The notes under the pieces: generated by a model
The model's database searches: none
The model's input: only the letters and a program-made list of their open reading frames with translations
What the model was told of the DNA's origin: nothing
Translations under genes and position numbers: made by a program
DNA from: Candidatus Thorarchaeota archaeon
GTDB taxonomy: Archaea > Asgardarchaeota > Thorarchaeia > Thorarchaeales > Thorarchaeaceae
Length of the DNA stretch: 64,000 nucleotides
Direction of reading: 5' to 3'
Assembly (NCBI GenBank): GCA_013388835.1
Contig: JACAEL010000069.1
Location: 1-64,000 of the forward strand
In this document: positions 8,736-24,758 of the stretch, in pieces
Layout of the letters: the number at the start of each line of letters is the position of its first letter
How positions within the stretch are numbered: the stretch's first letter is position 1

Positions 8736-10331
8736 ATGGTCAAGACCACGTTCACATTTGAGGAACTGAAGCGAACCAATCACCGTGAGATAAAGGAACT
8801 GCAAGACAGGAAGTTCCGTGCGTTCATAAGATATCAGGTCTGGCCGAATCATCCGTACTATCGTCGTCTGTTCAAGGAGAACAATATAGACCCCTTCAAT
8901 CTGACCTGCATCGAAGACTGGGCCAAGTACAAGATTCCGCTGGTCCGCAAGAAGGACTACAAGGACAGTCTTGCGCAGTTCGTACTGAATCCATCCCAAG
9001 TCGATGGAGCTGCAAGACCCCCTGCTGAAATAGTCAAAACATGGATGAAGTACACCAAGGAGTCCGGGAAGCATGATACTTACAGCTTCATCCGGAACAA
9101 CGGAGCCCGGGTGAAGCTCCACATCGGTTCTGCAGCGGCACAAGAACGTATCAAGGCTAGACTTACCCATGACTATGCTCCGCTCCAGTTCTGGCTCAGC
9201 TCAGGACGGGCCTCTGGTCTGCCGTCCCCCGTCTTTCTCACACGATATGACAATGAGTTGCTCTACAAGAACTGCGTGAAGGTAGGTCAGATGGCAATCG
9301 ACCCCTGGGTCGGCACCGGGTGGGAGCTTGTTAGCATGAACCTCTTTCCGTATGCACCCCATCTCGGATGGCATGCTGTCAACTTGGGCCTCGGTCAGAT
9401 GTCGAAGTTCTACGTTGCTACCAGTGCGGGAGGAGCAATACCCAGCGAGAAGCTTGTTGACCTAGCTAGGGTCTTCAAGGTGAACGGTTTCGCGGGTATG
9501 CCGTCCTACCTGCGCAATCGATTCTTCCGTGCGTTGAAGGAAGCAAAGGACTACACCGCGCCGGAGAAGGTTGTCGTGCTCCTCGCCGGTGAGAAGATCT
9601 ACGACGCAGTCGCACAAGACATGGTGCAGACCCTTACCGAAAAGGGTGCAAAAGAGGTGCGAGTCATAGGCGGCTATGCATCTTCAGAGAGCAAGGTGTC
9701 ATTTGCGGTTCAGTGCGACTATCGTGGCCCATACCACAACGTGAGCCCCCTCGTACTGTCCTTTGAGTTCATCAAGGTGAACAAGGACGGCACCTATGAC
9801 TTTGTGGGAGAGGATGAGCCGGGACATGTGACACTGTTCCATCTTGATGGCACTGGCACCGTATTCGAGGGCTTCCTTCTGGGTGACATCGCTTCTCGCC
9901 ATGAGAACGGGAAGTGTCCTGTCTGCGGGCTTGATGGCCCATTCTTCTGGGACATCGGCCGCCAGAACGACTCGGAGGCTCAGATTGAGGTCATGGGACT
10001 CACAGAGAAGAAGATCAAGGGTGCGACCGTCAATCTGACCGCCCTGAGAGAGGACCTTCTTCGTCTAAGCGAGATCGAAGAGTTACAGGTCGAGATAGCA
10101 AAGGAAGACATGTCAGACCCATATAGCATGGACATACTCAACCTCTATGTGGCTCCCCGCGGACCCGTAAACGCAGACTATACTTCCCTGACCCATGAGA
10201 TAGTGCGAATCACCAAGAATGCCACTGAGGTCACACCGAGGGTCTTCATGATTGCCTTCGAGGAACTCATGGAGAAGGCGGGGGGGCTCAAGTTCATGGA
10301 GATTGTTGATGCCCGTCCCAGACCGGCCTAG
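8736..10331 (+). CDS. PaaK-like AMP-forming acyl-CoA ligase
   Basis: A 531-residue member of the adenylate-forming family closest in layout to phenylacetate-CoA ligase/coenzyme F390 synthetase: N-terminal region with HPYYRRLFKE, a P-loop-like SSGRASGLPSP (residues about 152-162), VVLLAGEKI and VIGGYASSE in the core, the FLLGDIAS adenylate-contact strand, and a cysteine pair CPVCG in the C-terminal half. It would activate a carboxylic acid with ATP to an acyl-AMP and then a thioester. The substrate is unknown. The ATG start has AACAGGAGGT upstream and a TTTATTAT box near 8676. Confidence 0.8.
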   Translation: MVKTTFTFEELKRTNHREIKELQDRKFRAFIRYQVWPNHPYYRRLFKENNIDPFNLTCIEDWAKYKIPLVRKKDYKDSLAQFVLNPSQVDGAARPPAEIVKTWMKYTKESGKHDTYSFIRNNGARVKLHIGSAAAQERIKARLTHDYAPLQFWLSSGRASGLPSPVFLTRYDNELLYKNCVKVGQMAIDPWVGTGWELVSMNLFPYAPHLGWHAVNLGLGQMSKFYVATSAGGAIPSEKLVDLARVFKVNGFAGMPSYLRNRFFRALKEAKDYTAPEKVVVLLAGEKIYDAVAQDMVQTLTEKGAKEVRVIGGYASSESKVSFAVQCDYRGPYHNVSPLVLSFEFIKVNKDGTYDFVGEDEPGHVTLFHLDGTGTVFEGFLLGDIASRHENGKCPVCGLDGPFFWDIGRQNDSEAQIEVMGLTEKKIKGATVNLTALREDLLRLSEIEELQVEIAKEDMSDPYSMDILNLYVAPRGPVNADYTSLTHEIVRITKNATEVTPRVFMIAFEELMEKAGGLKFMEIVDARPRPA

Positions 10332-10527
10332 TCTACTGGCTGCGGTCACTCACCGACCATGAGAGTCACGGACTCTGCGGAAGTCATGTCTGGAGTCTGC
10401 ATAGCGGTCGTCGCGCCGCATAGTCCGTACATGTATGGCACACGAGTCGATTGCTTGTACCAGTTCCAGCCCTGAAACGATAGGTCGAAACCACTTATGC
10501 AATATAGAGTCAGAGTCATGCAATAGG

Positions 10528-10533
10528 TTATAA
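10528..10533 (+). promoter_or_regulatory. TATA-like box for the membrane protein gene
   Basis: TTATAA lies 41 bases before ATG 10569 in a 230-base intergenic stretch (10332-10562) that otherwise holds no gene. A GAGGTGG ribosome site (10556-10562) precedes the ATG by six bases. Confidence 0.45.
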
Positions 10534-10568
10534 GATTCGGGCATGAAGTACGACTGAGGTGGTTGTTC

Positions 10569-11519
10569 ATGGCGGTCGAGTTCGATTCTTCAGCCCCTGA
10601 AGCAACAAGCGCAGACCAGTTCAAACTGTCTGCAGTTCAGGTAGTCACAAAGACCATAGATGTATGGGCAAAGAAACCAGTACATTACATAGTGCTCTAC
10701 GGAATTGGCAGTTTCGTTAGTGCCATTGTCAGTGTCCTCTTGCTGTACATTGTTGCGGGCAACGACTTCTTGTCCGTTTTCCAATTGCAGGCGTCCTCTG
10801 ACATCACTACTACCATCGCGAACCTCTTCGCGCAGGTGCCTGCCACTCTAGCCATAGCCGTTTCTCTACTGGCCCTCGCACTAATCAGCACACTGTTGTC
10901 CGCTCTGTTTGCTGGAAGCACCATGAGGTACACCCTCAGTAGATATGCCGGGAACAACGAGGAAACGATTGCATCCAGCATCTCGTTTGGAGTGAACCGC
11001 ATTGTGAAACTATTCGGGGTTCAGCTCTTGCTGATTCTCATCGCCGGGGTCATAATGATTCCCGGACAGGTGTACACGTACGCGGTCATGGAAAGCATTC
11101 CATTGGATCCGTATCTTATCACTCCAGAGCAGGCCATGAGCGTTCTCACTGCATCTTTGTTCATGCTTTTGCTGCTACTTATTAACCTCTACTTGAACAT
11201 CCGGTTCTCAGTCGCTCTTCCGGTTGCTGTGGTTGAGGACTGTTCCATCGTCGGCTGTGTCAAACGTGCATGGAGTCTGAGCAGCGGTCAGTTCTGGCAT
11301 ATCTTCGGGCCACTGCTTTTGCTAGGAATTGGCACGGGTATTATAGGAGCCGGCTTGCTGGCTGGCTTTGCCTATCCAATCATGGTCAGTCCATTGTTTG
11401 TCATTGCAAGAGTAGTGGCAGTCCAAGCAATAGTTGGCTCGCTCAACGCCGTGTTCTTGCTTGTGCTCTATAAGGACCTCGAAGTCCGAAAAGCAGAAGT
11501 CGCACAGTTGCAGTGGTAG
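10569..11519 (+). CDS. Polytopic membrane protein (GDPD-membrane-domain-like)
   Basis: About 316 residues with six hydrophobic segments at roughly 40-65, 85-115, 145-170, 190-215, 238-265 and 275-300. A soluble N-terminal 25 residues precedes them. The arrangement, including a conserved-looking VVEDCSIVGCVKRAWSLSSG loop before the last two segments, resembles the membrane domain found in glycerophosphodiesterase-linked and DUF7544-like proteins. No catalytic site is visible. TTG 10563 is also in frame, but GAGGTGG is better spaced for ATG 10569. Confidence 0.7.
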   Translation: MAVEFDSSAPEATSADQFKLSAVQVVTKTIDVWAKKPVHYIVLYGIGSFVSAIVSVLLLYIVAGNDFLSVFQLQASSDITTTIANLFAQVPATLAIAVSLLALALISTLLSALFAGSTMRYTLSRYAGNNEETIASSISFGVNRIVKLFGVQLLLILIAGVIMIPGQVYTYAVMESIPLDPYLITPEQAMSVLTASLFMLLLLLINLYLNIRFSVALPVAVVEDCSIVGCVKRAWSLSSGQFWHIFGPLLLLGIGTGIIGAGLLAGFAYPIMVSPLFVIARVVAVQAIVGSLNAVFLLVLYKDLEVRKAEVAQLQW

Positions 11520-11536
11520 TTTTGGAAAGAGAATGC

Positions 11537-11563
11537 CGGACCGGGGTTTGCAGCCCCGGTCCG
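11537..11563. terminator. GC-rich hairpin between convergent genes
   Basis: A perfect 10-base stem CGGACCGGGG / CCCCGGTCCG with a seven-base loop (11547-11553). It lies 17 bases after the stop of the membrane protein gene and 23 bases from the stop of the convergent GTPase gene, so it can serve both strands. Confidence 0.7.
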
Positions 11564-11586
11564 ACTGACAGATGCTTGTTTGTGGT

Positions 11587-12918
11587 TCACTTCAAGCCGC
11601 GTTGTTGGACAAACTCGAGCAGTACGTCGTGAAGGTCTGGCTTGCCAATCTCTTGGAGGTCATATCTGACTCTAGTACTCGGTTTGTTGATTCTTATCAC
11701 CTTGGTCAGATCGATTGGCGTACCAATTACCACCGCGTCAACGTCAGCCTTACTGATTGTCTTTTCAAGCTCGAGCATCTGTTCCCGTCCGTAGCCCATT
11801 GCAGGCAAGACGTTCTCCAGGTGAGAGTATTTCTCGAACGTCTTCTTGATACTGCCGACTGCAAAAGGCCTTGGGTCAACAATGGTAGCTCCAGCCTTCT
11901 TAGCCGCAATGAATCCAGCCCCATACTTCATGTCCCCATGAGTCACGGTCGGGCCATCCTCGACAACAAGCACTCGCTTGCCTCTTATGAGGGCCATGTT
12001 GTCCACGCGCACGGGAGATGCTGCGTCAATTATGACAGCATTGGGGTTCACTTCCTGTACGTTTCGTCGGACGAATTCCACATCCTGGTAGTCCGCAGTC
12101 TCCACTTTGTTGATGATGACCACATGAGCCATCCGTAGGTTTGTCTCACCGGGGTAGTATGAGACCTCGTGTCCAGGTCTGTGTGGGTCGACCACAACTA
12201 TGTGAAGGTCAGGCTTATAGAATGGGAAGTCGTTATTGCCGCCATCCCATGTGATCACATCCGCTTCTTGTTCCGCCATCTCAAGAATCCGGCCGTAGTC
12301 GACTCCCGCATACAATACCACGCCCATACCAATCATGGGTTCATACTCCTCCCGTTCCTCTATCGTACACCTGTACTTGTCCATGTCCCCCATACTGCCG
12401 TACCTCTGTGCTATCTGGGTTGTCAGGTCAGGGTCATATGGCATGGGATGGCGGATGTTGACGGGCTTGAGTCCCATGTCGACTAGTATCTGATTGACTC
12501 TCCTCGAGGTCTGACTCTTTCCACAACCCGTTCTGACTGCTGTGACCGCGATCACTGGCTTCTTGCTCTTCAGTATCGTGGTACGAGGACCCATCAGTCT
12601 CATGTCCGGGCCAAGCGATGTCACCCATGCGATCTTGTGTCCCACGGTCATGTGCGGCAGGTCAGAGTAGGCGAGGATGCACTGCTCAACATCGTATTGC
12701 TTGATCAGTTCGGGCAGCTTCGCCTCTGGATATATCTTGATTCCATCCGGATATAGTCTGCCCGAGAGCTCGGGCGGGTAGACCCTGTCTCCAATCCCGG
12801 GTATCTGTTCAGCAGTGAAAGCTACCACTTCGTAGCCCTCATTCTCTCTGAAGTACACATTGAAGTTGTGGAAGTCTCTTCCGGCGGCTCCCATTATTAT
12901 GACTCGTTGTCTCGTCAT
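11587..12918 (-). CDS. Cyclic 2,3-diphosphoglycerate synthase-like GTPase
   Basis: A 443-residue protein of COG2403 type. It opens with a Rossmann-like VIIMGAAGRDFHNFN and carries a P-loop TAVRTGCGKSQTSRR at about residue 128, then TWDGGNNDFPF, VVVDPHRPG and VIINKVE. This layout is shared with cyclic 2,3-diphosphoglycerate synthetase of methanogens, which closes 2,3-DPG with ATP to give a compatible solute or phosphate store. Many archaeal relatives are annotated only as predicted GTPases, so the reaction here is probable rather than certain. Start ATG 12918. Confidence 0.8.
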   Translation of the reverse strand: MTRQRVIIMGAAGRDFHNFNVYFRENEGYEVVAFTAEQIPGIGDRVYPPELSGRLYPDGIKIYPEAKLPELIKQYDVEQCILAYSDLPHMTVGHKIAWVTSLGPDMRLMGPRTTILKSKKPVIAVTAVRTGCGKSQTSRRVNQILVDMGLKPVNIRHPMPYDPDLTTQIAQRYGSMGDMDKYRCTIEEREEYEPMIGMGVVLYAGVDYGRILEMAEQEADVITWDGGNNDFPFYKPDLHIVVVDPHRPGHEVSYYPGETNLRMAHVVIINKVETADYQDVEFVRRNVQEVNPNAVIIDAASPVRVDNMALIRGKRVLVVEDGPTVTHGDMKYGAGFIAAKKAGATIVDPRPFAVGSIKKTFEKYSHLENVLPAMGYGREQMLELEKTISKADVDAVVIGTPIDLTKVIRINKPSTRVRYDLQEIGKPDLHDVLLEFVQQRGLK

Positions 12919-13149: not shown

Positions 13150-13701
13150 GTGAAACTAGTAGAGCTTGCCCAGGAGTCCCTGCGATTGTTGAAGGAGAGT
13201 GGAGCGGAGGGCCTACGCAGCGATGATTTGGCAAGGATGCTGATGACTCCTAAGAGGAGGGTATACGACGTTGTGGCGGTGCTCAGAGCCCTCGGTCTAG
13301 TGACTACCCGGAGACGTTTCAACGGTACGACAATCACTTGGGTCGATCGTTCTAAGGAGTTCGTTCCCAGGGCCGAACACGAACGGCTCAAGAACGAGGT
13401 TCAGGCCCTGGACGCAGACAGAAAGGCTCTGCAGATTCAGGTTGTCGAACTGAAGGAGGAGCTGAGACAGGCCAGAGCCAGAGTGGCATACGAAGCAAGA
13501 CCTGTCCAGTCTGTCACGAGAACCGAGTTTAGCACAACACAACTTCGTGTACGATGTCATACGCCCGGCGGTTTCAAGAGAGTGACCAACTCAGGGATGG
13601 AGGTCCTGCTTGAGACCAGTGAGCCCGGTATGTCCGTAGACCCATCTGTCACACAGTGGAACGAGAACGAAGAACTCCTTCGTGTTCTTCAACGAGTCTG
13701 A
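13150..13701 (+). CDS. E2F/DP-like winged-helix DNA-binding protein with coiled coil
   Basis: Residues 1-66 match the E2F/DP winged helix in order and spacing: a first helix LAQESLRLLKES, then LRSDDLARML, and the recognition helix KRRVYDVVAVLRALGLV holding RRVYD at 36-40. In eukaryotic E2F the corresponding RRIYD supplies the arginines that read TTSSCGC. A basic wing (TTRRRFNGTTITWV) follows. Residues 75-112 form a heptad coiled coil, where eukaryotic E2F has its dimerisation helix, and a beta-rich tail of 70 residues comes after. Start GTG 13150, with CTATATTGG at about 13121-13129. The similarity is read by eye; homology rather than convergence is not proven. Confidence 0.7.
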   Translation: MKLVELAQESLRLLKESGAEGLRSDDLARMLMTPKRRVYDVVAVLRALGLVTTRRRFNGTTITWVDRSKEFVPRAEHERLKNEVQALDADRKALQIQVVELKEELRQARARVAYEARPVQSVTRTEFSTTQLRVRCHTPGGFKRVTNSGMEVLLETSEPGMSVDPSVTQWNENEELLRVLQRV

Positions 13702-13704
13702 CAC

Positions 13705-14085
13705 TCAGCCCTGTCGAAGCACGGCTCGAGCTCCTCTCCTAACTGTCCTGAGTCCTTCAAGGACAGAGTCCGCCGAGATGATACGCCCTATGACATTCAC
13801 AGGTGAGAATGTTGTCATCTCGTCAAGGTAGATACACAAACAGTCTCCGAGGGGCATATACGCGACTTGTCCTCTCTTGACCTGCCTCGTAGCCTTGATG
13901 TTGCCCTTGTTAATGCCGACTGTGACCCTCATTTCACCTCTCAGAAGAGCTGCCTTGCCCTCAATTGGCAGTCGGCTTTTCAACTCCTCCACTATGCTTG
14001 GCGCATGGACACGGTCCAGCACAGCCTGTACCATGGTACTATCGTCGAATACGACGTCTATCCTGAGTTCGCTCTCGGCGGCCAT
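13705..14085 (-). CDS. Cyclophilin-like domain protein
   Basis: A 126-residue beta-rich protein with the features of the archaeal/bacterial cyclophilin-like family (PF04126 type): LKSRLPIEGKAALLRGEMRV near the start, GQVAYMPLGDCLCIYL in the middle, and TTFSPVNVIGRI. These proteins have a cyclophilin fold, but prolyl isomerase activity is usually unproven. Start ATG 14085. It is convergent with the E2F-like gene, with three bases between stops, and divergent from the VWA operon. Confidence 0.75.
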   Translation of the reverse strand: MAAESELRIDVVFDDSTMVQAVLDRVHAPSIVEELKSRLPIEGKAALLRGEMRVTVGINKGNIKATRQVKRGQVAYMPLGDCLCIYLDEMTTFSPVNVIGRIISADSVLEGLRTVRRGARAVLRQG

Positions 14086-14195: not shown

Positions 14196-15320
14196 CTGCC
14201 ATCAAGACTGGATGTTGCATTTGTCGTGGATACCACGGGCTCTATGAAGGATGACATTAGGGCGGTGAAAGACAGCCTCTTTGACATTGTCGACCGTGTG
14301 ACAGAACGCACAAGAGGACTTGTCATCCGGTTTGGGATAGTGTCGTACAGAGACCACCCGCCCCAAGACAAGACCTACGTCACAAAGATCTTCGACTTCA
14401 GTGATGACATCAAGAAGGTCCACAGGGAGATATCGAAGCTTGACCCATCTGAGGGGGGTGACATGCCAGAGGCGGTTGCCGATGCGCTACATGACGCCCG
14501 TACGAGTCTCAGTTGGATGCGGGACTCATACAAGGTTCTGATTCTGGTTGGAGATGCGCCTCCTCATGGCAGGGCGTACAACAACATGGGAGATGACGCA
14601 TGGCCCAACGGTTGTCCGTGCGGGTATGACCCCAAGAATGAGGTCCAGCTGCTCAAGAAGGAACACGGCTCGACGGTGTTTGTGTTTGTCTGCGGCTGCA
14701 ATCCTGTTGTGGAGGACGCTTTTCGGAGCATTGCCAATGCCGTAGATGGTGGGGTATATTACTCACTCGTAGAGGTACGACATGTCCCTGACGCCATTCT
14801 GAAGATTCTTGAAGGAATGAGCGACCTCATCGAGTCGGATCAGAAAGTGCTAAGATACTACCAGTCACATGACGGGGTATTTGACCTTGGACAGGCAGCA
14901 TCGGACCTTGGGCTTGAACTCCGAGAGGTGAAGACCAGCCTCTCTCGACTCATTGAACTTGGAACTGTGCCTCGGTGGCCGAAGGGTCGTCCTCTCTCCT
15001 CCGGACAGATAGGTCTCTCGGTTGAACTGGGAGACGTGCCTGACGCCATACTCCCTGGTAAGGCATTCAAGTACCAGGTAAGGGTCAAGAACCCTAGTTC
15101 TGCAACAGCAGGGGTCCGAATAGTCGTGTCAATTGTGTCCGAGGACGGTGTCTCAGAGATAACAAATGAACAGCACGAGATTGCCCCCCGAGGTGACTCC
15201 ACAATAGACCTGAAGCTCGTGCCCATAGTCTACTCGAAGGGAAAGGCCAGTGTGAAGGTCGAAGTATACTATGGTTCAAAGCCTCTAGCATCCCGAATCT
15301 ACTCCACACGGGTCTACTAG
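14196..15320 (+). CDS. VWA-domain protein with winged helix and Ig-like tail
   Basis: The N-terminal VWA domain has an intact metal (MIDAS) site: VVDTTGSMKDD for the DxTxS motif, SEGGDMPEA, and ILVGDAPPHG, the pattern seen in VWKA-like VWA domains. It is followed at about residues 215-260 by a winged helix (VLRYYQSHDGVFDLGQAASD) and then by a CARDB-like beta-sandwich (VRVKNPSSATAGVRIVVSIV). The first ATG/GTG/TTG in frame is GTG 14226, which would remove the first VWA strand; the complete domain needs LPSRLDVAFVV, which follows a CTG at 14196 with GAGGAG at 14181-14186. I therefore set the start at CTG 14196. It is first in a four-gene operon. Confidence 0.75.
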   Translation: MPSRLDVAFVVDTTGSMKDDIRAVKDSLFDIVDRVTERTRGLVIRFGIVSYRDHPPQDKTYVTKIFDFSDDIKKVHREISKLDPSEGGDMPEAVADALHDARTSLSWMRDSYKVLILVGDAPPHGRAYNNMGDDAWPNGCPCGYDPKNEVQLLKKEHGSTVFVFVCGCNPVVEDAFRSIANAVDGGVYYSLVEVRHVPDAILKILEGMSDLIESDQKVLRYYQSHDGVFDLGQAASDLGLELREVKTSLSRLIELGTVPRWPKGRPLSSGQIGLSVELGDVPDAILPGKAFKYQVRVKNPSSATAGVRIVVSIVSEDGVSEITNEQHEIAPRGDSTIDLKLVPIVYSKGKASVKVEVYYGSKPLASRIYSTRVY

Positions 15321-15331
15321 GAGGTCTACCT

Positions 15332-16483
15332 GTGGAGCTCAAGCTGTTGCAAGGACGGAATCAACAGGGTATGAGCTTCACGAGCCCCGGATGCCTCGGC
15401 GGGAATGTCAAGACGGTCATTATTCGCTCAGAGGGTAGGCTCGTCCTGTCTGACGTGCGACACTCGGACAGAGTGCCAGCCAACAGCATTGTGGTGGATG
15501 CACGTATTGCTGACGCTCTCTTGGCCCGAGAAGGAACCGCCGTTCTGGTGGAGGCTGCGGACGAGGACATACCTGTCTGTGAAGAGATCTCTCTGAGCGT
15601 GAGTTCCCACACCGGGCTTGACTCTGAGAAGGTCGCTTCTGCTGTGTCAAAGAGAGTCACTGACCTGAAGCCCTATGTTGAAGGACTGATACTGCGGAGC
15701 GGTCAGGAGTTGCGGGCCGATGACCTGAGGCTCACATTCCGAGTCAAGTCGGTCACTCCCATGAGCACCACCCACCGGGCTGCGAGAGTCTTGTGGAAGC
15801 GGCTGAATAGGGTTGAGATTGAGGCCACTAGAGAAGCAGAATGCTACAACCTGTGCTGTGTCTTCGAGATGACCTCCACTGTGCACAGGAGTGACATCTC
15901 CATGGACGGTAGGATGGTCACTGAGTGGCAAGCAGCACTGCAGACTGCAAGTGACCTGTTGAACGACCTCATGTCCTGTGAGGCAGTCGCCCTGTTCAGT
16001 GCAATGATGTTCTCCTCATCTGTTGAGACTTTCAAGACGTACGACCCCGATTCAGGCCAAGAGTCTGAGTTCTGCACCGTTGACACGCCAGATGTGGCAA
16101 AGATGCTCTCGCTCTGGATGAGTAACAGGGAGAAAGACCATCGCGGGTCTCCTGCCAGTCCAGGGCTTGCAATAGAGCGTGCTCTTGGACTTGCCTACGA
16201 CATGACCCGCAAGAACGGACTGCCCACAGTCGTGCTCCTGTTCGCCTCGGGTGCTTACTCAGCAGGACCAAACCCTGTGAAACTCGCCACAGTGGACCCG
16301 GGCCAAGAACGCATAGCAGTGTTCACAGTTGGACTGGGCAGTTCTGCAGACATGGATCTGCTAGACGCCATAGCAGAGTCAGGAAGGGGAAGTGGCATTC
16401 GAGTCTCCACGGATGTGGACGCGGAGGCTGTTGAGAGAGCAGTTCATGACTGGGTACATAGGAGGACTGGGATAGTTGGGTGA
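15332..16483 (+). CDS. Cdc48-N-like barrel fused to a degenerate VWA domain
   Basis: Residues about 25-165 read as a Cdc48/p97 N-domain: a double-psi barrel segment (NSIVVDARIADALLAREGTA) then the second subdomain VTDLKPYVEGLILRSGQELR and LRLTFRVKSVTPM, which mirrors the 'PYL...RPV..GD.f.V....F.V....P' pattern of p97. Residues about 170-380 form a VWA fold (TVVLLFASGAYSAG, IAVFTVGLGSSADMDLLDAI), but the DxSxS motif is replaced by FEMTSTVHRSD, so no metal site is expected. GTG 15332 has AGGAGGT at 15319-15325. There is no ATPase domain. Confidence 0.7.
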   Translation: MELKLLQGRNQQGMSFTSPGCLGGNVKTVIIRSEGRLVLSDVRHSDRVPANSIVVDARIADALLAREGTAVLVEAADEDIPVCEEISLSVSSHTGLDSEKVASAVSKRVTDLKPYVEGLILRSGQELRADDLRLTFRVKSVTPMSTTHRAARVLWKRLNRVEIEATREAECYNLCCVFEMTSTVHRSDISMDGRMVTEWQAALQTASDLLNDLMSCEAVALFSAMMFSSSVETFKTYDPDSGQESEFCTVDTPDVAKMLSLWMSNREKDHRGSPASPGLAIERALGLAYDMTRKNGLPTVVLLFASGAYSAGPNPVKLATVDPGQERIAVFTVGLGSSADMDLLDAIAESGRGSGIRVSTDVDAEAVERAVHDWVHRRTGIVG

Positions 16484-16490
16484 TGGGCTG

Positions 16491-17696
16491 TTGACACGAC
16501 TTCAGGCCATGCGCGCCAGCAATGAGGTCTCAGGGTTCATTTGTTCGCGCCTTCCTTCAGGGCGCCTAGAGTCTGGATGTATTGAACAGGGTCTCTTCTC
16601 AAAGGGTACTGAGGGCGAGCTTCGTCTGCGCACGACTCAGGTACAGACTCTGATACCTGCAGACCGGACTGTTCGCCTCTTCACCGAACGAGGAGTGTTG
16701 AAGCAGGGCGACTATGGCATTCTCATGCTGGGCGAGCCGGGTCTGCACTCACCGCGATTCAATGTATATCTTGGGAACGACTCCTCAGAAGGCCAGACGT
16801 TCAGATACTGCGCCGCATTCTGGACTGTGAGCTCAACTCCTGATAGAGTACTTCGGATAGTCCTCAACGAGGCATTGGGCGTCGAGCCACCTCAGAGTAG
16901 CACAGTGTTCACAGACTATGTCGAAGAGGTCAGAGAGGCTGCTTCGATGGGACTCGTGAAAGAGGCACTTGCTATGGCGATACCAAGAGGGAAGTTCAAG
17001 CCCTCCGAATGGGTTAGTGAAGCAACAGCCGCAGAGGAGGACGAAAAGGTCCCGCTAAAGGTGGGCGAACTGAAACTCATACCGAGTCTTGCCCCGGTTG
17101 TGACCACTTGGATTCTTGGACTTGAGCTGGTCAGAAACACAAGAGACCGGTGCGTTGCTGCAATCATGTCACACGATGGTCGCACTGAGTCATGTCTGTG
17201 GGACGGTTTGAGGAGTATGGCTCTGTTCATGGTAACGGAAGGCCTAGATGCGAACCCCCTCCTGCTTTCAACAGTCCAGTCAATGTGGTCGTCTGGGAAA
17301 GAACGAGACCTGCCACCCAAGGTGCCTCAGAGTCGTTCAGACGATACTGCTCAATTGCGTATGCAAGACTCGTCATCCCCAAGTCTCGTCGAGTCAGAGA
17401 GAGTTGAGCGAGGACAAGACAAGACGACAGCGACGCCCAGCGACTTGGACCAGCTCACCCAGCTGATTCGAAACGTGCCCGTCGCTGAGATCCTATCCCG
17501 ACTGGCACATGTTGAACAGCGGGTCGAGTCCATAAGCACTAGGACGCCGTCCTCGCCCGATGAGTCGGGTAGTAGGTCCCTCCACGAACTGACGACCAGT
17601 CGGCTAAAGGAGGTGGTCGAACGGCTCGAACGACTGTCTGAACGTCTAGAGGACTTGGAAAAGAGAATCGCACGGTTTGCTTCGAAGACAGGGTGA
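16491..17696 (+). CDS. Unknown protein of the VWA operon, with C-terminal coiled coil
   Basis: About 400 residues. The first 270 form an alpha/beta region I cannot place, with beta-rich beginnings (SRLPSGRLESGCIEQGL, VRLFTERGVLKQGDYGILML) and helices later (EVREAASMGLVKEALAMA). Residues 275-320 are low-complexity and charged, and the last 60 form a strong coiled coil (LKEVVERLERLSERLEDLEK). TTG 16491 is preferred because GGTGA lies seven bases upstream and overlaps the previous stop; TTG 16476 is an alternative. Tight spacing on both sides ties it to the VWA proteins as a likely partner. Confidence 0.65.
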   Translation: MTRLQAMRASNEVSGFICSRLPSGRLESGCIEQGLFSKGTEGELRLRTTQVQTLIPADRTVRLFTERGVLKQGDYGILMLGEPGLHSPRFNVYLGNDSSEGQTFRYCAAFWTVSSTPDRVLRIVLNEALGVEPPQSSTVFTDYVEEVREAASMGLVKEALAMAIPRGKFKPSEWVSEATAAEEDEKVPLKVGELKLIPSLAPVVTTWILGLELVRNTRDRCVAAIMSHDGRTESCLWDGLRSMALFMVTEGLDANPLLLSTVQSMWSSGKERDLPPKVPQSRSDDTAQLRMQDSSSPSLVESERVERGQDKTTATPSDLDQLTQLIRNVPVAEILSRLAHVEQRVESISTRTPSSPDESGSRSLHELTTSRLKEVVERLERLSERLEDLEKRIARFASKTG

Positions 17697-17703
17697 CATT
17701 CCT

Positions 17704-17997
17704 ATGACAGACAGCAATGAGGAAGAGACGCGGAAGGATGCACAGTCTGTTCTTGCCTCGATGTCCGAGATTCTACAGCGACTTGAGAATGTCGAGAGTG
17801 TGCTTGACAGGATCGAAACGACTCTCGGAAAGAGACAAGGGTTGGCCTTGACGGACCAGACCGAGACCCGCGTGTCGAAGCTGCAATCGACTGCATCTCT
17901 CACCGAATCGACTCGCGAGGCGGTCTCCAGACTAGAGGTGGAGGTTGCAGACCTCGAGTCAAGAGTGAAGGCCATCGAGCTAATGCTGTCCGAGTAG
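17704..17997 (+). CDS. Short coiled-coil protein of the VWA operon
   Basis: A 97-residue acidic coiled coil (MSEILQRLENVESVLDRIET, then VSRLEVEVADLESRVKAIEL). ATG 17704 follows a GGTGA eight bases upstream that overlaps the previous stop. Its helix register resembles the C-terminal helix of the preceding protein, which hints that the two pair as a hetero-coil. It ends directly against the convergent gene at 17998. Confidence 0.65.
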   Translation: MTDSNEEETRKDAQSVLASMSEILQRLENVESVLDRIETTLGKRQGLALTDQTETRVSKLQSTASLTESTREAVSRLEVEVADLESRVKAIELMLSE

Positions 17998-20658
17998 TCA
18001 CCGAGGCTGTCCTGAAGCAGTCAGTGCTTCGAGCGAAGAGAGGACTGCGTTGTGTATCGTCTGTAGACATATCTTCGAAGCCTTTTCAACCACGAAACAT
18101 GACCCCTGCAGAGTCTTCAGTGCAGCCTGAGTGTCGAAGCTCTCCCCGACACCTATGACAAGAACCCGGCAACCATTCCTCTGTCCGATGGCATGGATGA
18201 AGGATGCGGCTTCATCTCCCTCGGCCTCTGCCCCACTTGTGACCAGAATTGCAAGAGTGGGCCTCTGGTCGCCAAAGTCCTCCAGAAACTCAGCAATGGA
18301 GCGATAGACCTCAGTCATGTTGGGAGGCCCAGCAGAGTCCCTGAGCGCGTCAAGCACTGATAGGACCATAGTGGTCCGTACCTCGCTTGACTCCATGTCA
18401 TCAGAGAACTGCAAGTACTGCTGAACCGTTTCCGCTTTCTGAACCGAGAACTTCTCCACGTCCTTGCTTGCGTTGATGAGAGCGAACCTCCCGTCGCATC
18501 GGTTCACCTCGAACAGGCTCATCAACAGCAGTCCAATTATCGCAACCCCCTCGGACCCCGAAACACTTCCCCGTACGTGGTCCGCAATCTGCTCCGTCAG
18601 GCCACCACCAGCGGAGCGCGTCAGTCTTGACAGGATGCTCCTCGGGGATGTCACGGAGATGCGTGACTCTCTACCTCCATTGAATTCAAGGCAGAGAATG
18701 ACATTGATCTCGGAGAGAGACGGAAGGGGTCTGAATTCCACATCCGCTCCTGTCAGAGTGCCGACCTCTCCGGGTCGGAGCTGCGGCCGTGACCACGTCA
18801 GATTAAAGATCACACCATGCTTCTGGCCCAAGGGGTAGTACTTCACACCTCTTGCAACAAAGAATCCCTGAAGCTTCGAGACAACATCACCATCTCTGAG
18901 CTGTATCAGGGACACCGTCTCCCCGGTGGTCGGTCCTGCAGACTCCCTGTAGCCAAAGACCACCTGTCTGAGGCCAATAGGCTGCCCCTGATACCTTACA
19001 ATGTCTAGCTGGTGCTTTCCGCTCATTGCGACAAGTTCTGAGTCGAGAGTGTGCACTGAGGCAGTCCGCGATTCCACGTCGCATGCGAAGGCCTTTCCTA
19101 CAAACCACTGACCGGTATGGTCCTCGAGAATCAGGACAAGGTCATCATCAGATACATTGAGTGCTTCCATGTCGCTCCGGTTCAGCCCAATCATTCCGGG
19201 GGAGGTCTCCTGCCTGCTCGCTGAGAAGTGAAGTGTAGAGAGTATCTCGACAGGGTCGACTACCCGGAAGTGCTCAAGAAGTGACTTACCAAACGCTCTC
19301 AGATGAGAGGGAGAGTTAAGCACCGGGCCCGACTGGGTGATGGACCTTAGAAGCGCAGTCATCTCTTCAGAGTCCCGGGACACCGGACCACGACTGAGCA
19401 CTCTCGTCCATCCCACCAGTCTCAGAGTCCCATCGTGTTCAGACTTCATGACCAGACTGGAAGCCCGCTCAGATGCGGCATCCTCGACTGTGACCACGGC
19501 TGTGCTGGTGTCTACTCTATAAGAGTCTGTTGAGATCATGAACGCCACAGATGCGACATGCTTCTGCTCTCTCGAAGCCAAGACCTGTAGCATGCGCAAG
19601 ACCTCATCATAAGCAGCCTTGCCCAACGACCGCTCAGCGACAACACACTCATCGTTAGCAGTAGCACGGAGGAAGGGTGGCGCTGATGGTAGCATCCGCA
19701 TGAGATTGCCCGCAAATATCCTCTGGAGGTCTCGCGGGGTTCCGGCCAGAGTCCTGCTCAGCAGATAGCTGAGAATCTCTGTTATGCTGTCGCCCAGCTG
19801 CGTCTCCGGATATAGACTCCCGAAGACAAGCCCGGACGCCCAGTCTTCGCCTCGGACTTCACGTAGCCGCTTGGTGATGGTGGATAGGGACCTCACTGTG
19901 GAACCCGCTGTGAGGAACCTTATGTCGGGTATTTCGGCCAGTCGGTTCACGACTGCTCCTAGCGTCTTGTGTGAACGCAGCGTGAGTACAATCGACGACC
20001 ACTTCAGTCCCATGCTTTTCAGAACCGAAAGCCATTCTAGGAGCGCGTCAAGGTCCTCTCGGTTGACCATCTCAATGAAGACGGGAAACCCCTGCCTCAG
20101 GTAGCCTATGAGGTCGTTTCTGTGGTGGCCATCAAAGACAGGCTTCAAGTCTTCTACTCGGAGCTGACAACCCCACCCTTGTCTGTCGTAGTCGCCCCAC
20201 CGGAGGTCTTGAGTGACAAGCATTCTAGGGCCATAGGGAGCGGTGAGGCACCATCTTCTGACAGTCTCAGAGTTCTCCTCTCGCTGAGCCTTACTCAACA
20301 CCATGTCTCCGACGTTCGATAGGGGACGAACGAGGAATTGGTCAACTAGCCAGCTGGTATCTGCCTCCTGCATTCCGGCATAGAGGTCACTAAGCAGCCG
20401 AGGTCTTGCCAGGTAGTCGTAGGTCTTACGAGGGACGTACTTGTACGCACTGGGATACTTTGAGACAAGCGTGAACAGCTGGCTCTCCACGGTCCTGTAG
20501 TATGAGAGTGCCCGGGCCGGGTCGAATGTTGTATTCTGAGATCCCACCTGGACGACTCCAAGTTGTAGCGTCCCGTCAAGTACAAAGAAGCGGTGGATTT
20601 CATTTGCCTCGCTGTCTTCTACTACCAGCAAGTGACTCGCCCCGTTGGTTTGTGTCAT
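17998..20658 (-). CDS. Pseudo-amidohydrolase / Cdc48-N-like / VWA fusion protein
   Basis: An 886-residue protein with three parts. Residues about 20-330 parallel the active amidohydrolase encoded next door (20761): RFFVLDGTLQLG against AFYVVDAHHHMG, TSWLVDQFLVRPLS against HGWLVDRTVVFPYS, RDLQRIFAGNLMRML against ADIQRVLAGNILSLV. The metal HxH is replaced (D28-G-T-L), so it should be inactive. Residues about 485-645 form a Cdc48-N-like double-psi barrel (SPGMIGLNRSDMEALNVSDD, GFFVARGVKYYPLGQKHGVI). Residues about 650-880 form a VWA fold (RPTLAILVTSGAEAEG, CRVLVIGVGES) lacking DxSxS (it has LEFNGGRES). ATG 20658 is chosen; 72 further upstream codons look non-coding. Confidence 0.7.
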   Translation of the reverse strand: MTQTNGASHLLVVEDSEANEIHRFFVLDGTLQLGVVQVGSQNTTFDPARALSYYRTVESQLFTLVSKYPSAYKYVPRKTYDYLARPRLLSDLYAGMQEADTSWLVDQFLVRPLSNVGDMVLSKAQREENSETVRRWCLTAPYGPRMLVTQDLRWGDYDRQGWGCQLRVEDLKPVFDGHHRNDLIGYLRQGFPVFIEMVNREDLDALLEWLSVLKSMGLKWSSIVLTLRSHKTLGAVVNRLAEIPDIRFLTAGSTVRSLSTITKRLREVRGEDWASGLVFGSLYPETQLGDSITEILSYLLSRTLAGTPRDLQRIFAGNLMRMLPSAPPFLRATANDECVVAERSLGKAAYDEVLRMLQVLASREQKHVASVAFMISTDSYRVDTSTAVVTVEDAASERASSLVMKSEHDGTLRLVGWTRVLSRGPVSRDSEEMTALLRSITQSGPVLNSPSHLRAFGKSLLEHFRVVDPVEILSTLHFSASRQETSPGMIGLNRSDMEALNVSDDDLVLILEDHTGQWFVGKAFACDVESRTASVHTLDSELVAMSGKHQLDIVRYQGQPIGLRQVVFGYRESAGPTTGETVSLIQLRDGDVVSKLQGFFVARGVKYYPLGQKHGVIFNLTWSRPQLRPGEVGTLTGADVEFRPLPSLSEINVILCLEFNGGRESRISVTSPRSILSRLTRSAGGGLTEQIADHVRGSVSGSEGVAIIGLLLMSLFEVNRCDGRFALINASKDVEKFSVQKAETVQQYLQFSDDMESSEVRTTMVLSVLDALRDSAGPPNMTEVYRSIAEFLEDFGDQRPTLAILVTSGAEAEGDEAASFIHAIGQRNGCRVLVIGVGESFDTQAALKTLQGSCFVVEKASKICLQTIHNAVLSSLEALTASGQPR

Positions 20659-20760
20659 TCCTGTTGGTGAACAGATATATGCGTAGTGTATCGTCAGATG
20701 TCTGTCTGTACCATGTTTCATCACGTCCACATCATGACAGCACAGGCGGAGTTGTAGCAG

Positions 20761-22260
20761 ATGCTCATTGTGCGAGCTGTGGAGGACCTCCCCCAGTATG
20801 GAATGAAGAAAGGGCAGGAGATTGCATTCTATGTGGTTGATGCCCACCACCACATGGGGAAGGAGAAGTCCCACAGGAACACTCCCTCTGGAGCATATGA
20901 CTTCTATGCACTCCTGTGGTTCGAAATGCAGCGCATGGCCAAGGAGATGCTTGACAGAGATGAACTGCTTCTTGAGCCGGTCAGGGTCGAGCCACCACCG
21001 GCAGTGGCAAGACTCTTCGGGTCAAGGGATGACTGGAATGCTTTCAACCATGGTTGGCTTGTGGACCGGACTGTCGTCTTTCCATACTCGGACGACTATG
21101 CCCGCTCCGGCTTTCCGCAGAACGCCAGCTTCAAGGTCTCAAATGACCGCATAGCCGGATGGTCCACTCGGGCGCCCAACTCCGCCAGACTCATAGGGTT
21201 CGCTCGGGTCGACCCGATGGACTACAAGGAGGGAAGACCCGACTTGGCAGTGGTGGAACTCGAACGCGCTGTCAAGACCCTGGGTCTGAGGGGTCTCAAA
21301 CTGCATCCACTGTCTCAGCTCTTCGTCGACGATCTCACCAGCACACCCGTCAAGGAGGTACTTCTCAAGGCATTTGAACTGAACATCCCTGTCCTCTTTG
21401 ACACGAGAAACATCCGAACGGTCAGCAAGATAGTCGAACTGACGGAGGCTCTTGCAGGACCCGCCATCGACCGGTCATACAGCGGGGTGATTGTGGCTCA
21501 CTGTGGCATGAGCCCGGGCGACCCTGCACTATACAAGTACCTTGGGCATCCACGAGTCTATGGGGAGACCTCCACACTACACGGCAATGATGTGCCGCTT
21601 CTATTCAAGAGCGCGAGGGAGAGGATCGTATCAGATGGAAACAGATGGTCAGAGAAGCTCATCTTCGGAACCGACTACACCTTTCTCTCTGTCCAAGCGG
21701 CTCAGGTTGTCCTCTTCATGCTCTCTCGTGACTTCCCCGGGAACCTGGCCGACATACAGAGGGTGCTGGCCGGGAATATCCTCTCCCTAGTCAGGACCCC
21801 CATGAAGACAGACGCGGGTTGTACTCTGAAGCCAAGACAACTGCTGCTCAGGAGGCAGTCCAGCAGTGTGCTGGAGGCTCTGGAGAGAGAGGTGTTCTCT
21901 CTCGTATCAGACGGCGAATGGGAGACCTCCTCATTGGACTTTCTGATCCCACCATCGGGGACTTGGCCGGAACCCCGCGTGGAGGAGAGCGGCTGGTTCT
22001 GCGGAGTGGACATTGAATCGTATGTCCTCACGATTGTGCACCGGGAGTCGAGGAGAGAGGTGCATCTTCTGTTTCGCCAGCATCCGGGGGACATTGTCAC
22101 ACTGTCGGTGATTGGTAGTCGCGGCGAACCAACGCTTTGCACAACAGAACACTCAACACAGAGAATGAACTACGAACTTGAGAGGACTCTCAGTAAGAAC
22201 TCCAGGCAGATTGACAGCCCAGACGCTGTTCACGCGGCACTGAAGTCACTGCTACCATAG
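20761..22260 (+). CDS. Amidohydrolase (amidohydro_2 type) with unknown C-terminal domain
   Basis: Residues about 22-350 form a TIM-barrel metal hydrolase with every expected ligand motif: VVDAHHHMG (H29, H31), GLRGLKLHPLSQLF, GVIVAHCGMSPG and IFGTDYTFLS. Relatives hydrolyse or decarboxylate small aromatic or cyclic acids. The last 145 residues (from RRQSSSVLEALEREV) are an extra alpha/beta domain that seems to have a counterpart in the pseudo-enzyme encoded divergently. The shared architecture and 102-base divergent promoter suggest a paired enzyme and pseudo-enzyme. Start ATG 20761; the 33 residues before the HxH strand are longer than usual. Confidence 0.8.
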   Translation: MLIVRAVEDLPQYGMKKGQEIAFYVVDAHHHMGKEKSHRNTPSGAYDFYALLWFEMQRMAKEMLDRDELLLEPVRVEPPPAVARLFGSRDDWNAFNHGWLVDRTVVFPYSDDYARSGFPQNASFKVSNDRIAGWSTRAPNSARLIGFARVDPMDYKEGRPDLAVVELERAVKTLGLRGLKLHPLSQLFVDDLTSTPVKEVLLKAFELNIPVLFDTRNIRTVSKIVELTEALAGPAIDRSYSGVIVAHCGMSPGDPALYKYLGHPRVYGETSTLHGNDVPLLFKSARERIVSDGNRWSEKLIFGTDYTFLSVQAAQVVLFMLSRDFPGNLADIQRVLAGNILSLVRTPMKTDAGCTLKPRQLLLRRQSSSVLEALEREVFSLVSDGEWETSSLDFLIPPSGTWPEPRVEESGWFCGVDIESYVLTIVHRESRREVHLLFRQHPGDIVTLSVIGSRGEPTLCTTEHSTQRMNYELERTLSKNSRQIDSPDAVHAALKSLLP

Positions 22261-22308
22261 CGACCGATTCTTTATAACAACACACTGACACGCAGATTAC
22301 AAGGAATT

Positions 22309-23613
22309 GTGGAGGCGACAGAGATCCCCAAACGCATGACTTTGAAGATTGTTGATGGTGGCGATCTCAGAGGATATGCGAATCTTCATCCGGACACCGC
22401 AAAGGCGCTCGACGCTGAGATTGGCTCGATAGTCACGTTCGAAGACACAAGCAGCGGCTTCTGGGGCGCAGCCGAGATACGGAAGAGCTCCTCTGTGGGA
22501 CGGGACCGAATAGTAGTCGACACACTCATACTGGAGGCTTCCCTCCTAATGGATGGTGACACGGTTGAGGTGGAGCTGTATGAGAAAGATATGGTCGCTC
22601 TCGAGTACGTGGAGTTTGGACTGAAGCCGCTGACAGACAAGGCAAACTCAGAGGACCTGATAACCAGAGCTGCAGAAAAGATCGACTCACTTGAGAAAGT
22701 GATAGGTGGTCGTCTGGTCTACCCCGGGATGTCCTTCAACTGGCCGGAGATGGCTGTCAAAGTTGAGATTACCCTGACCCGACCTCCACTGAGCGGCAAG
22801 AGCTTCGCGAAGCTCGCCTTTGAGGCGTTACGAGAGAAGACCGGGTACCAGTTCAAGACAATTGGTATTGCTACACCATTCAATGCCATACTCTGCATTG
22901 ACACAAGCGGGTCCATGAAGACTACCGACGTTCCTGTTCAGGACATTGCACATGCGAGGGAGGGGCTGAAGGACCTGGCAGGTGACAATCCAGAGGTGCA
23001 GAGCTTCTTGGATCGTTTTGAAGAGGGCAAGAATGTGAGCAGAGCCGAGGCCGCCGCGATGGCGGTCCTGCTCTATCTGGCCGAGAAGGTGGGTCGAGGG
23101 TATGGCGAGAAGGTCGCACTAGTCACCTTTGAGAAGGATGTCAGTGAGATGACCTTTCTGAACTCTGAAACGGGAGAAGTGCAACCGTTTGTGGAGTGTA
23201 CTGGGAAAGACAAGGCTCTCGGCCAACAGGTGATCAGCACTTATGTCATAGACAAGGTAGAGGAAGGCGGGACGCTCACTGATATCGGTACCGCCCTCAT
23301 CAAGGCCCATGAGATTCTGCTTGCGTTCAAAGACCCAAACAAACCCGCAATGATAATCGTGCTCACTGATGGTATGACAACAGCAGGCCCGCCTCCACTG
23401 AAGGTACTGAAAGAGCGCTTCACGGAGAAGAACCGACTCGTAATCTACACGATAGGCCTGGGCGAGCGAAGTGAGATTGACGAAGAGCTCATGCTGGCCA
23501 TAGCTCAGTTCGGTAACGGGACCTATCGTCATGTCGATAACATGAGGGACCTGCTCGAATGGTACGGCAGACTTGCAAGCGAGTTCGCCATTGTCATAAA
23601 GGGAAATGCCTAG
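22309..23613 (+). CDS. Cdc48-N-like barrel plus intact VWA domain
   Basis: A 434-residue protein. Residues about 10-170 form a double-psi-barrel type N-domain (LRGYANLHPDTAKALDAEIG, then LLMDGDTVEVELYE and GGRLVYPGMSFNWPE). Residues about 195-430 form a canonical VWA with an intact MIDAS: ILCIDTSGSMKTTD, EGGTLTDIGTAL and IVLTDGMTTAGPPP. Start GTG 22309 has AAGGAA a few bases upstream, and TTTATAA (22270-22276) is a TATA-like box about 35 bases ahead. It is the one member of the Cdc48-N/VWA set here with a working metal site. It overlaps its convergent neighbour by four bases. Confidence 0.75.
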   Translation: MEATEIPKRMTLKIVDGGDLRGYANLHPDTAKALDAEIGSIVTFEDTSSGFWGAAEIRKSSSVGRDRIVVDTLILEASLLMDGDTVEVELYEKDMVALEYVEFGLKPLTDKANSEDLITRAAEKIDSLEKVIGGRLVYPGMSFNWPEMAVKVEITLTRPPLSGKSFAKLAFEALREKTGYQFKTIGIATPFNAILCIDTSGSMKTTDVPVQDIAHAREGLKDLAGDNPEVQSFLDRFEEGKNVSRAEAAAMAVLLYLAEKVGRGYGEKVALVTFEKDVSEMTFLNSETGEVQPFVECTGKDKALGQQVISTYVIDKVEEGGTLTDIGTALIKAHEILLAFKDPNKPAMIIVLTDGMTTAGPPPLKVLKERFTEKNRLVIYTIGLGERSEIDEELMLAIAQFGNGTYRHVDNMRDLLEWYGRLASEFAIVIKGNA

Positions 23614-24758
23614 GAGAAGGCGTCAACCAGCCCTCTCAGAGTGTCTAGATCCATGTCGCGGATTTGCTCTTCGGTCAGCCCCTTCAGCGCCTCTGGGGGC
23701 ACCTTCATCAAGAGCTTCCCCTTGACTTCGCCATACTTGGTGATTAGTTCTGAACTCGTAGACTCTTCGGAAGACGTGGCAGACGATTCGCCTGAGGACT
23801 CCCTGTCAGGCGTAGCAATCAGGGCCTCAAGCTCATCTTCACTTAGGCTGTCAATGGCGCCCGGTGGCAGTGAGTCTCGGACTTCCTTCGGTATCTTGGC
23901 AATGAGCTCCTCACGGCTCGGTCCCTTCTTCACTACCCTGACCTTCTTCACCTTCCGAACACGTACTGTCTTCTTCTTCTCCCTGCCTGCAGCTTCAGGG
24001 AAGGAAGCCATCAGTGAGTCGACGAGTTCTCTTGCAGTGGTTGGAGTCAGTCGTCTGAGGTCTTCTACGGGTAGGGTTGCACGCAGGTCCTCCGGTAGTT
24101 CGCTCAGAATTGCCTCCACTTCTGCCGACATTCCTGTTGTCTTCGGAGTGGTGACTTCAGCTTCGGCTGTCGCGGCGGGTGTCTCTGTGCTTCTGAGGAT
24201 TATGGGCTCGCTCTCAAGCTCCGCCTCCAGAGCGGTTGAGTCAATGGGTACGTCGAACTTCTGGCGGCTCCATCTGACGTAGCTGTCGATTGCATTCGAG
24301 TTCACGCGAAGACCTCGGAGGTATTCTCGGACCTGTTCCTCGGTCATGCCCGGAAAGCCATCAATGAACTTGTCGATGGTCTCAGAGGGCAGTCTCGCCC
24401 AGATTGGACCGTTGACCAGTTTCGACAGCCCTGCAGCACAGTGGGACCGCACCCATGTGTTTGTGTCCTTGAGACCCCTCAATAGATGGGGTATGTTCCG
24501 GGGTTGTCGGTACCACGCAATCAGCTGAGCAGCAGCTATCCTCACATTGGCCTCATCATCATCCAGTGCTCGTACCGCATCAAGGACCATTGATGGGTCC
24601 CCGACTTCGACTGCAGCCAATAGAGCTCTCTCCCGAACTGTCTCAGAGGCATCCGAGAAAGCACTGATCAGTTCCGCTCTGACCTTGGGGTCCTTCCGTG
24701 CTAGCTTTCCGACTTCCTCGGTTTCATACTCAAGCAACATCTGCCTAGTATCAGCCAA
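23610..24758 (-). CDS. HEAT-repeat protein with tandem PxxLxxxLP motifs
   Basis: Residues 1-130 are HEAT/PBS-lyase-type repeats (VRERALLAAVEVGDPSMVLD, VRIAAAQLIAWYRQPRNIP, WVRSHCAAGLSKLV). From residue 215 a short helical motif occurs three times: SELPEDLRATLPVEDLRRLT (219-238), AKIPKEVRDSLPPGAIDSLS (287-306) and MKVPPEALKGLTEEQIRDMD (351-370), each ending in a leucine-rich ELV/ALI/GLV helix. Charged linkers separate them, one strongly basic (KKKTVRVRKVKKVRVVKK, 261-278). TTG 24758 has AGGAGA upstream. It is probably a scaffold; its convergent overlap with the VWA gene makes it a candidate cluster partner. Confidence 0.7.
   Translation of the reverse strand: MADTRQMLLEYETEEVGKLARKDPKVRAELISAFSDASETVRERALLAAVEVGDPSMVLDAVRALDDDEANVRIAAAQLIAWYRQPRNIPHLLRGLKDTNTWVRSHCAAGLSKLVNGPIWARLPSETIDKFIDGFPGMTEEQVREYLRGLRVNSNAIDSYVRWSRQKFDVPIDSTALEAELESEPIILRSTETPAATAEAEVTTPKTTGMSAEVEAILSELPEDLRATLPVEDLRRLTPTTARELVDSLMASFPEAAGREKKKTVRVRKVKKVRVVKKGPSREELIAKIPKEVRDSLPPGAIDSLSEDELEALIATPDRESSGESSATSSEESTSSELITKYGEVKGKLLMKVPPEALKGLTEEQIRDMDLDTLRGLVDAFS

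Follow-up and report, generated by a model that had tools for sequence, protein, structure and literature searches.

A conserved gene cluster around NvB

The window analysed here is a 64,000-nucleotide stretch, contig C69 of the 3.0-Mb genome of a member of the Thorarchaeia (Asgard archaea). It contains a cluster of eight open reading frames (ORFs), for which we coined the names VWA1, NvA, CC1, CC2, BIG, AMH, NvB and HEAT (Table 1). All eight were verified at the coordinates given in an earlier, sequence-only reading of this DNA, with BIG and HEAT on the minus strand. The nearest named relative found was Ca. Thorarchaeota OWC2, whose NvB is 80% identical. Because the cluster was syntenic in all 12 of the 12 same-class loci examined, its arrangement is far beyond chance. 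The genomes compared are metagenome-assembled genomes, so absences from them are soft. NvB is the best-conserved cluster member (75–82% identical within the family), as would be expected of a core subunit. Across Asgard archaea it is found together with the amidohydrolase AMH and with a ligase domain protein, GCS2, and it is this gene set that we describe below.

The sequence-only reading had proposed that NvA, BIG and NvB each join a Cdc48-type N-domain to a VWA domain, which was borne out by profile, structure and alignment comparisons. The Pfam profile CDC48_N (PF02359) matched 13 of 35 NvB-family members (best E-value 1.3e-9), and a 35-sequence NvB profile queried against the PDB found the N-domain of VAT (1cz4) in register (E-value 0.006). 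Foldseek aligned an AlphaFold2 model of NvB (pLDDT 84.8) to p97 N-domains with a TM-score of 0.65–0.75 of the target. NvA matched NvB over its full length by hhalign (E-value 4.5e-29), as did the C-terminal half of BIG (see below), and CDC48_2 (PF02933) matched five of seven NvA members. In Pfam scans of single window proteins, the Cdc48-N region was recovered only through a weak CDC48_2 match, besides VWA.

The four VWA domains comprise two with a metal ion-dependent adhesion site (MIDAS) and two without, as had been read by eye. The MIDAS residues of NvB (D193/S195/S197/T319/D349) are invariant in its alignment, and those of VWA1 (D12-T14-S16, DxTxS, with D120) are invariant in 12 orthologues. 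The site is missing from NvA in the NvA alignment (A3) and from the VWA half of BIG.

NvB resembles the N-domain of Cdc48, p97 and VAT, a double-psi β-barrel with a second barrel, both in fold and in detectable sequence similarity. Unlike those proteins it has no AAA+ D1/D2 ring; the VWA domain comes next instead, and NvB ends after it. In agreement with the sequence-only reading, a Pfam scan of the cluster proteins matched no AAA+ domain. Nor was one matched in the proteins scanned at 8.7–12.9 and 25.0–27.6 kb of the window, so the nearby AAA+ gene that was to strengthen that reading was not found among the neighbours scanned. UFD1 carries a free Cdc48-N domain. DEPDC5 pairs an NSF/Cdc48-like N-terminal domain with a Sec23/VWA-like SABA domain (PMC8534245). 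The premise that Cdc48-N is found nowhere but ahead of an ATPase ring is thus not supported.

NvB, AMH and GCS2 form a recurrent gene set

AMH matched PF04909 (E-value 1.3e-10), and its metal site (H5, H7, H158, H223 and D281, numbered from 20833) was invariant in 15 sequences from two families. It resembles ACMSD/COG2159 amidohydrolases in this Pfam match and in the full HxH/H/H/D metal site. It differs from them in having an extra N-terminal strand region and a C-terminal domain, a link to NvB and a fused dead copy.

The second enzyme lies beyond the cluster. In most Thorarchaeia genomes GCS2 is located ~10 kb downstream of NvB; in the source genome it sits on another contig (C24), which is why the sequence-only reading missed it. 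Asgard families are labelled here by number (f1, f2, f4, f11 and so on) and loci as L048 etc. In an all-vs-all locus comparison, 16 loci of other Asgard families had GCS2 next to AMH, to NvB or to both, and in f4 the AMH–NvB pair is convergent with a 1180–1250-aa protein bearing the GCS2 ligase domain. GCS2 matches PF04107 above the cut-off, its E22/E24 (E-x-E) and H172/H174 (H-x-H) motifs are invariant, and the closest solved structure among PDB matches was YbdK (E-value 1.4e-12). The Pfam match and both motifs are those of YbdK-type carboxylate-amine ligases, an activity that we predict for the Asgard proteins. These differ from YbdK in often being 1000–1400 aa long, with long C-terminal extensions (an Ig-like match in one), and in neighbouring AMH and NvB.

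We quantified the association in 228 Asgard genomes. NvB was present in 128, AMH in 130 and GCS2 in 130, with all three in 114 and any of them in 141. In 12 families, the presence of one gene was accompanied by the others, and the other 17 families had none of the three, save weak generic amidohydrolase matches and one weak NvB-profile match (f15). Fisher p values for co-occurrence ranged from 1e-37 to 3e-48 and ignore shared ancestry; it is the family-level agreement and the conserved proximity, not these values, that carry the co-occurrence argument. AMH and GCS2 were at most 15 kb apart in 93 of the 93 genomes with both on one contig, as were NvB and AMH in 67 of 76 genomes. The conserved neighbourhood in Asgard genomes that the sequence-only reading called for does exist. 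Outside the Asgard archaea, no homologues were found in viral contigs, plasmids yielded only weak VWA-level matches, and one scan of genome contigs matched only a close Thorarchaeota relative.

The gene order c20–GCS2–AMH recurs in f2 and f27, and a mirrored NvB–c20–GCS2–AMH order is found in f24/f25. Here, c20 is an unannotated family located between or beside GCS2 and NvB (L062, L064–L066, L077–L079, L084, L085 and L098). Its members have an Ig-like N-terminus, with a weak TRAPPC13_C match in one, and a conserved C-terminal domain without recognised fold; by sequence, c20 had no PDB match. A short version of c20 adjoins GCS2 in Thorarchaeia.

BIG is a decayed fusion of AMH and NvB

The N-terminal ~460 residues of BIG are a copy of AMH, including its C-terminal domain (hhalign E-value 8.2e-27), and the C-terminal half matches NvB over its full length (E-value 1.2e-34). 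In the amidohydrolase half, the invariant metal ligands of AMH are missing. This dead half, the GCS2 partner and the wider Asgard gene set were all absent from the sequence-only reading.

BIG homologues were identified in 43 genomes of f1 as well as in f4, including a second genome (L096), and in f11. As the homologues of f1, f4 and f11 form one clade (support 98/94), the AMH–NvB fusion arose once within these lineages. It then decayed stepwise: read by eye, the f11 copies keep HxH but have FGTN for FGTD, and they retain part of the MIDAS, whereas HxH is gone in f1. The idea of an active and decoy set thus holds insofar as active and decayed copies stand side by side. The word decoy does not fit a fusion that decays in steps, and "pseudoenzyme fusion" is the better term for BIG. 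Fusion of two neighbouring genes is a classical sign that their products act together. By this Rosetta-stone argument, the joining of AMH and NvB copies in one chain points to an AMH–NvB complex.

Other genes of the cluster and its flanks

Table 1. Features of the NvB gene cluster (positions in the window).
Feature	Position	Strand	Description
VWA1	14196..15320	+	MIDAS-bearing VWA, apparent winged helix (by eye), C-terminal Ig-like domain; putative start
NvA	15332..16483	+	Cdc48-N-like domain and VWA, MIDAS lost
CC1	16476..17696	+	C-terminal coiled coil after a region without recognised fold; evolves fast
CC2	17677..17997	+	Short coiled-coil protein
BIG	17998..20658	-	886 aa; pseudo-amidohydrolase (residues ~8-461) and Cdc48-N/VWA half (residues ~467-863)
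AMH	20761..22260	+	ACMSD/COG2159-type amidohydrolase, full metal site, C-terminal domain common to BIG
GGAGG ribosome-binding site of NvB	22311..22315	+	8 nt 5' of start codon
ATC, likely NvB start codon	22324..22326	+	Orthologue comparison
NvB	22324..23613	+	Cdc48-N (residues ~1-175), VWA with intact MIDAS (residues ~180-429); proposed core scaffold
HEAT	23610..24758	-	HEAT-repeat protein, repeated C-terminal motifs

The start of NvB required revision. The sequence-only reading had begun the gene at GTG 22309, which overlaps the GGAGG ribosome-binding site and is an unlikely start. Across 25 Thorarchaeia orthologues the codon where the conserved protein begins is ATC (22), ATT (two) or ATA (one), and never ATG, GTG or TTG. 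GGAGG precedes this codon by 8 nt in 21 of the 25; in the remaining four it would run into the preceding stop codon. In most orthologues, no standard start codon lies after that stop and ahead of the point where protein similarity begins. NvB likely starts at ATC 22324. Conserved non-AUG starts usually mean controlled translation, and this rare, conserved AUC-type start suggests translational control of NvB, reminiscent of the AUU autoregulation of infC.

The remaining cluster genes differ in conservation. VWA1 (VWA_4, E-value 4.5e-13; Transglut_C, E-value 0.0015) is kept across Thorarchaeia at 61–67% identity. NvA evolves fast (26–32% identity) and is missing in some relatives. CC1 was ruled out as a further decayed NvB (hhalign probability 0.2), and its comparison is the negative control for the hhalign matches of BIG and NvA. 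Most relatives have an ORF similar to CC2 in size and place. HEAT (HEAT_2, E-value 6.1e-12) and NvB are convergent in every Thorarchaeia locus examined, and the tail of HEAT has three imperfect copies, seen by eye, of a 25–30 residue motif like IPKEVRDSLPPGAIDSLSEDELEALI.

Bordering the cluster (13150–14085) in every Thorarchaeia locus examined are an E2F/DP-type winged-helix protein, which has a leucine-zipper-like segment, and a cyclophilin-like protein. Two proteins of 531 and 443 aa at 8736–12918, ~75–82% conserved and without Pfam match, adjoin the cluster in relatives. Further away, at 49045–52941 on the minus strand, lies a protein of 1298 aa; its N-terminus is TrmB-like, and it carries long helical repeats of an apolipoprotein-like kind.

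Resemblance of NvB to DEPDC5/Iml1 and other systems

In the Foldseek search with the NvB model, DEPDC5/Iml1 chains took ranks 1–6 and 8 (E-value ~3e-11, ~430 columns spanning the whole query), above the p97 N-domains. A BIG model (pLDDT 82.5), built from an alignment separate from that of NvB, likewise matched both, with DEPDC5 chains at ranks 1–3, 5, 6, 8 and 12, ahead of p97. The global TM-score between NvB and DEPDC5 is only ~0.33, and the domains are oriented differently. Judging from the models, the likeness is one of domain order and local structure, not a rigid match.

DEPDC5/Iml1 (Sea1), a nutrient-sensing protein in humans, is a subunit of GATOR1/SEACIT, and GATOR1 acts on Rag GTPases. 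DEPDC5 consists of an N-terminal domain (NTD; Sec18/NSF-like), SABA (Sec23-like), SHEN, DEP and a C-terminal domain (CTD), a set called unique among proteins in a 2021 review (PMC8534245). At the level of predicted fold, NvB shares with DEPDC5/Iml1 an NSF/Cdc48-N-fold domain followed directly, and in the same order, by a VWA/Sec23-like domain. It differs in that SHEN, DEP and CTD are missing and in its partners, AMH and GCS2; no DEP domain was matched in the Pfam scan of the cluster proteins. Sequence searches gave no corresponding signal. The IML1 profile hidden Markov model (HMM; PF12257) had no match on the NvB loci in 59 Asgard genomes and only chance-level matches elsewhere, no DEPDC5 chain was among the PDB matches listed for the 35-sequence NvB profile, and the NPR2 HMM (PF06218) for NPRL2, the longin-domain partner in GATOR1, gave nothing over the cut-off in 99 genomes.

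Some NvB neighbourhoods are of interest here. A long NvB in f2 and f27 has a second Cdc48-N domain and adjoins a Roadblock protein and a gelsolin-like protein matching the Lokiarchaeota 2DGel structure (E-value 1e-13); that of f2 is also next to actin. In the f2 loci L052, L053, L054 and L074–L077, the two Cdc48-N domains accompany a proline-rich linker, YjeF/NnrD-type genes lie beside NvB with the Roadblock and gelsolin-like genes, and several loci have actin and coiled-coil genes. An NvB paralogue and a Gtr1/RagA-type GTPase gene are divergently arranged in three genomes of f11 and one of f28. At L050, L070, L103 and L104, where such a paralogue is divergent from an HHH + Gtr1/RagA-type GTPase, genes for arginase, radical SAM and alcohol dehydrogenase proteins are close by, and AMH and GCS2 are not. 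Asgard genomes hold many Gtr1/RagA-type GTPases, so adjacency alone is weak evidence. Neither GATOR nor DEPDC5 is mentioned in a paper that covers Rag-like GTPases and Roadblock proteins of Asgard archaea (PMC10933270), and in the open-access literature we found no paper tying Asgard archaea to GATOR1/DEPDC5 or to the NvB gene set.

Other systems resemble the cluster in part. MIDAS-bearing VWA proteins encoded in operons are also found in MoxR/RavA-ViaA and chelatase-type systems, but the AAA+ ATPase that defines those systems was not found here. The VWA domains are also like the VWA-type trunk of COPII Sec23/Sec24, but no cluster protein had a Sec23/24 Pfam match. Earlier Asgard surveys report COPII-like homologues (PMC10307638). 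PADLOC matched no core gene and yielded one weak HEAT model match only.

Proposed function of the gene set

Beyond the domains, the co-occurrence and neighbourhood of the three genes, the fusion with its decay and the conservation of active sites, all of which were computed directly, we tentatively propose that NvB is the scaffold for an amide ligase/hydrolase pair in a phylum-wide Asgard complex. NvB would be the subunit that joins GCS2, as an ATP-dependent carboxylate-amine ligase, to AMH, as a metal-dependent amidohydrolase of the ACMSD type, and it probably holds the two together physically. Partners or clients may bind to the Cdc48-type N-domain of NvB, which would choose the client, and the VWA domain of NvB may bind or sense a ligand through Mg2+ at the MIDAS. 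With considerable doubt, we envisage a cycle in which GCS2 would form an amide bond on the client, a glutamate-type tagging of a protein or small amine, and AMH would break the bond that GCS2 made. In Thorarchaeia and two other families, an AMH–NvB pair fused and decayed to BIG, which probably pairs with or regulates the active AMH–NvB unit.

Several observations weigh against this proposal. Both enzyme families have diverse members: some ACMSD-type enzymes are decarboxylases, and the product of GCS2 may be a small metabolite. The ligase is ~10 kb away in Thorarchaeia and on the other contig in the source genome, AMH and NvB are mostly non-adjacent in f28, and some NvB paralogues (L048, L050 and L070) have neither enzyme alongside.

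The structural ranks raise another interpretation, in which NvB corresponds in archaea to the NTD–SABA half of DEPDC5/Iml1 and is perhaps its ancestor. NvB would then be a scaffold controlling Rag/Arf-like GTPases with Roadblock, with AMH and GCS2 as sensors, derived from enzymes, for metabolites of amino acids. We consider this unlikely. NvB and the independent BIG model both rank DEPDC5/Iml1 ahead of p97, the combination of NSF-N-like NTD and Sec23-like SABA is called unique (PMC8534245), and Roadblock (f2, f27) and a Gtr1/RagA-type GTPase (f11, f28) occur beside NvB proteins. This has to be set against the low TM-score and differing domain orientation, the IML1 HMM that did not match NvB, the lack of DEPDC5 among the listed matches of the NvB profile, the NPR2 HMM with nothing over the cut-off, the missing SHEN, DEP and CTD, and the sheer number of small GTPases in Asgard genomes, where some adjacency is expected. 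In a purely metabolic complex, a small molecule, gamma-glutamyl-type or related, would be made and processed by GCS2 and AMH, with NvB and BIG as assembly or metallation chaperones; this seems rather improbable. YbdK/GshA-like relatives of GCS2 act on small molecules, the ACMSD family is metabolic, and a role in inserting metals or maturing enzymes is common among VWA proteins. Such maturation systems, however, as a rule require an AAA+ partner, and none was found among the genes scanned; moreover, the Ig, HEAT and coiled-coil partners and the actin, gelsolin and Roadblock neighbours in f2 resemble cell biology more than a simple pathway.

The sequence-only reading had suggested an adaptor system for protein remodelling or tagging. 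Taken to mean a set that delivers clients to the Cdc48/VAT ATPase of the cell to be unfolded, this is very unlikely, although the N-domains are genuine: in Cdc48 the N-domain serves to bind adaptors and not the ATPase, and the genes scanned in the cluster, its flanks and among the partners included no AAA+ gene. The recurrent, linked partners are instead an amidohydrolase and the GCS2 ligase, which argues for amide-bond making and breaking rather than protein unfolding. Least probable of all is an anti-virus or inter-microbe conflict system. The fast evolution of NvA, CC1 and BIG, the pseudoenzymes and the weak match to a PADLOC HEAT model might hint at one, but NvB spans the phylum, is highly conserved and keeps its place, PADLOC had no core-gene match, and a nuclease, protease or effector of toxin-like type was not found.

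Significance for Asgard archaea

Asgard archaea are the closest relatives of eukaryotes known, and the presence of the gene set in many of them suggests that they share an ancient machine. Found in about half of the genomes and 12 families, this combination of scaffold, ligase, hydrolase and pseudoenzyme fusion matches no described system in the open-access literature. The domain order of NvB is the one that the 2021 review calls unique to DEPDC5/Iml1 (PMC8534245). It is a long shot, but NvB may be homologous to the NTD–SABA core of DEPDC5/Iml1, in which case the GATOR1 scaffold and the amino-acid branch of TOR signalling would derive from an archaeal complex that already used Rag-like GTPases, Roadblock, and an amide ligase and amidohydrolase as metabolic input. 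If the likeness is convergent, these genes remain candidates for an archaeal amide-tagging or metabolite system. If it reflects homology, NvB would be a prokaryotic relative of a GATOR1 subunit, and an archaeal origin of nutrient sensing would become testable.

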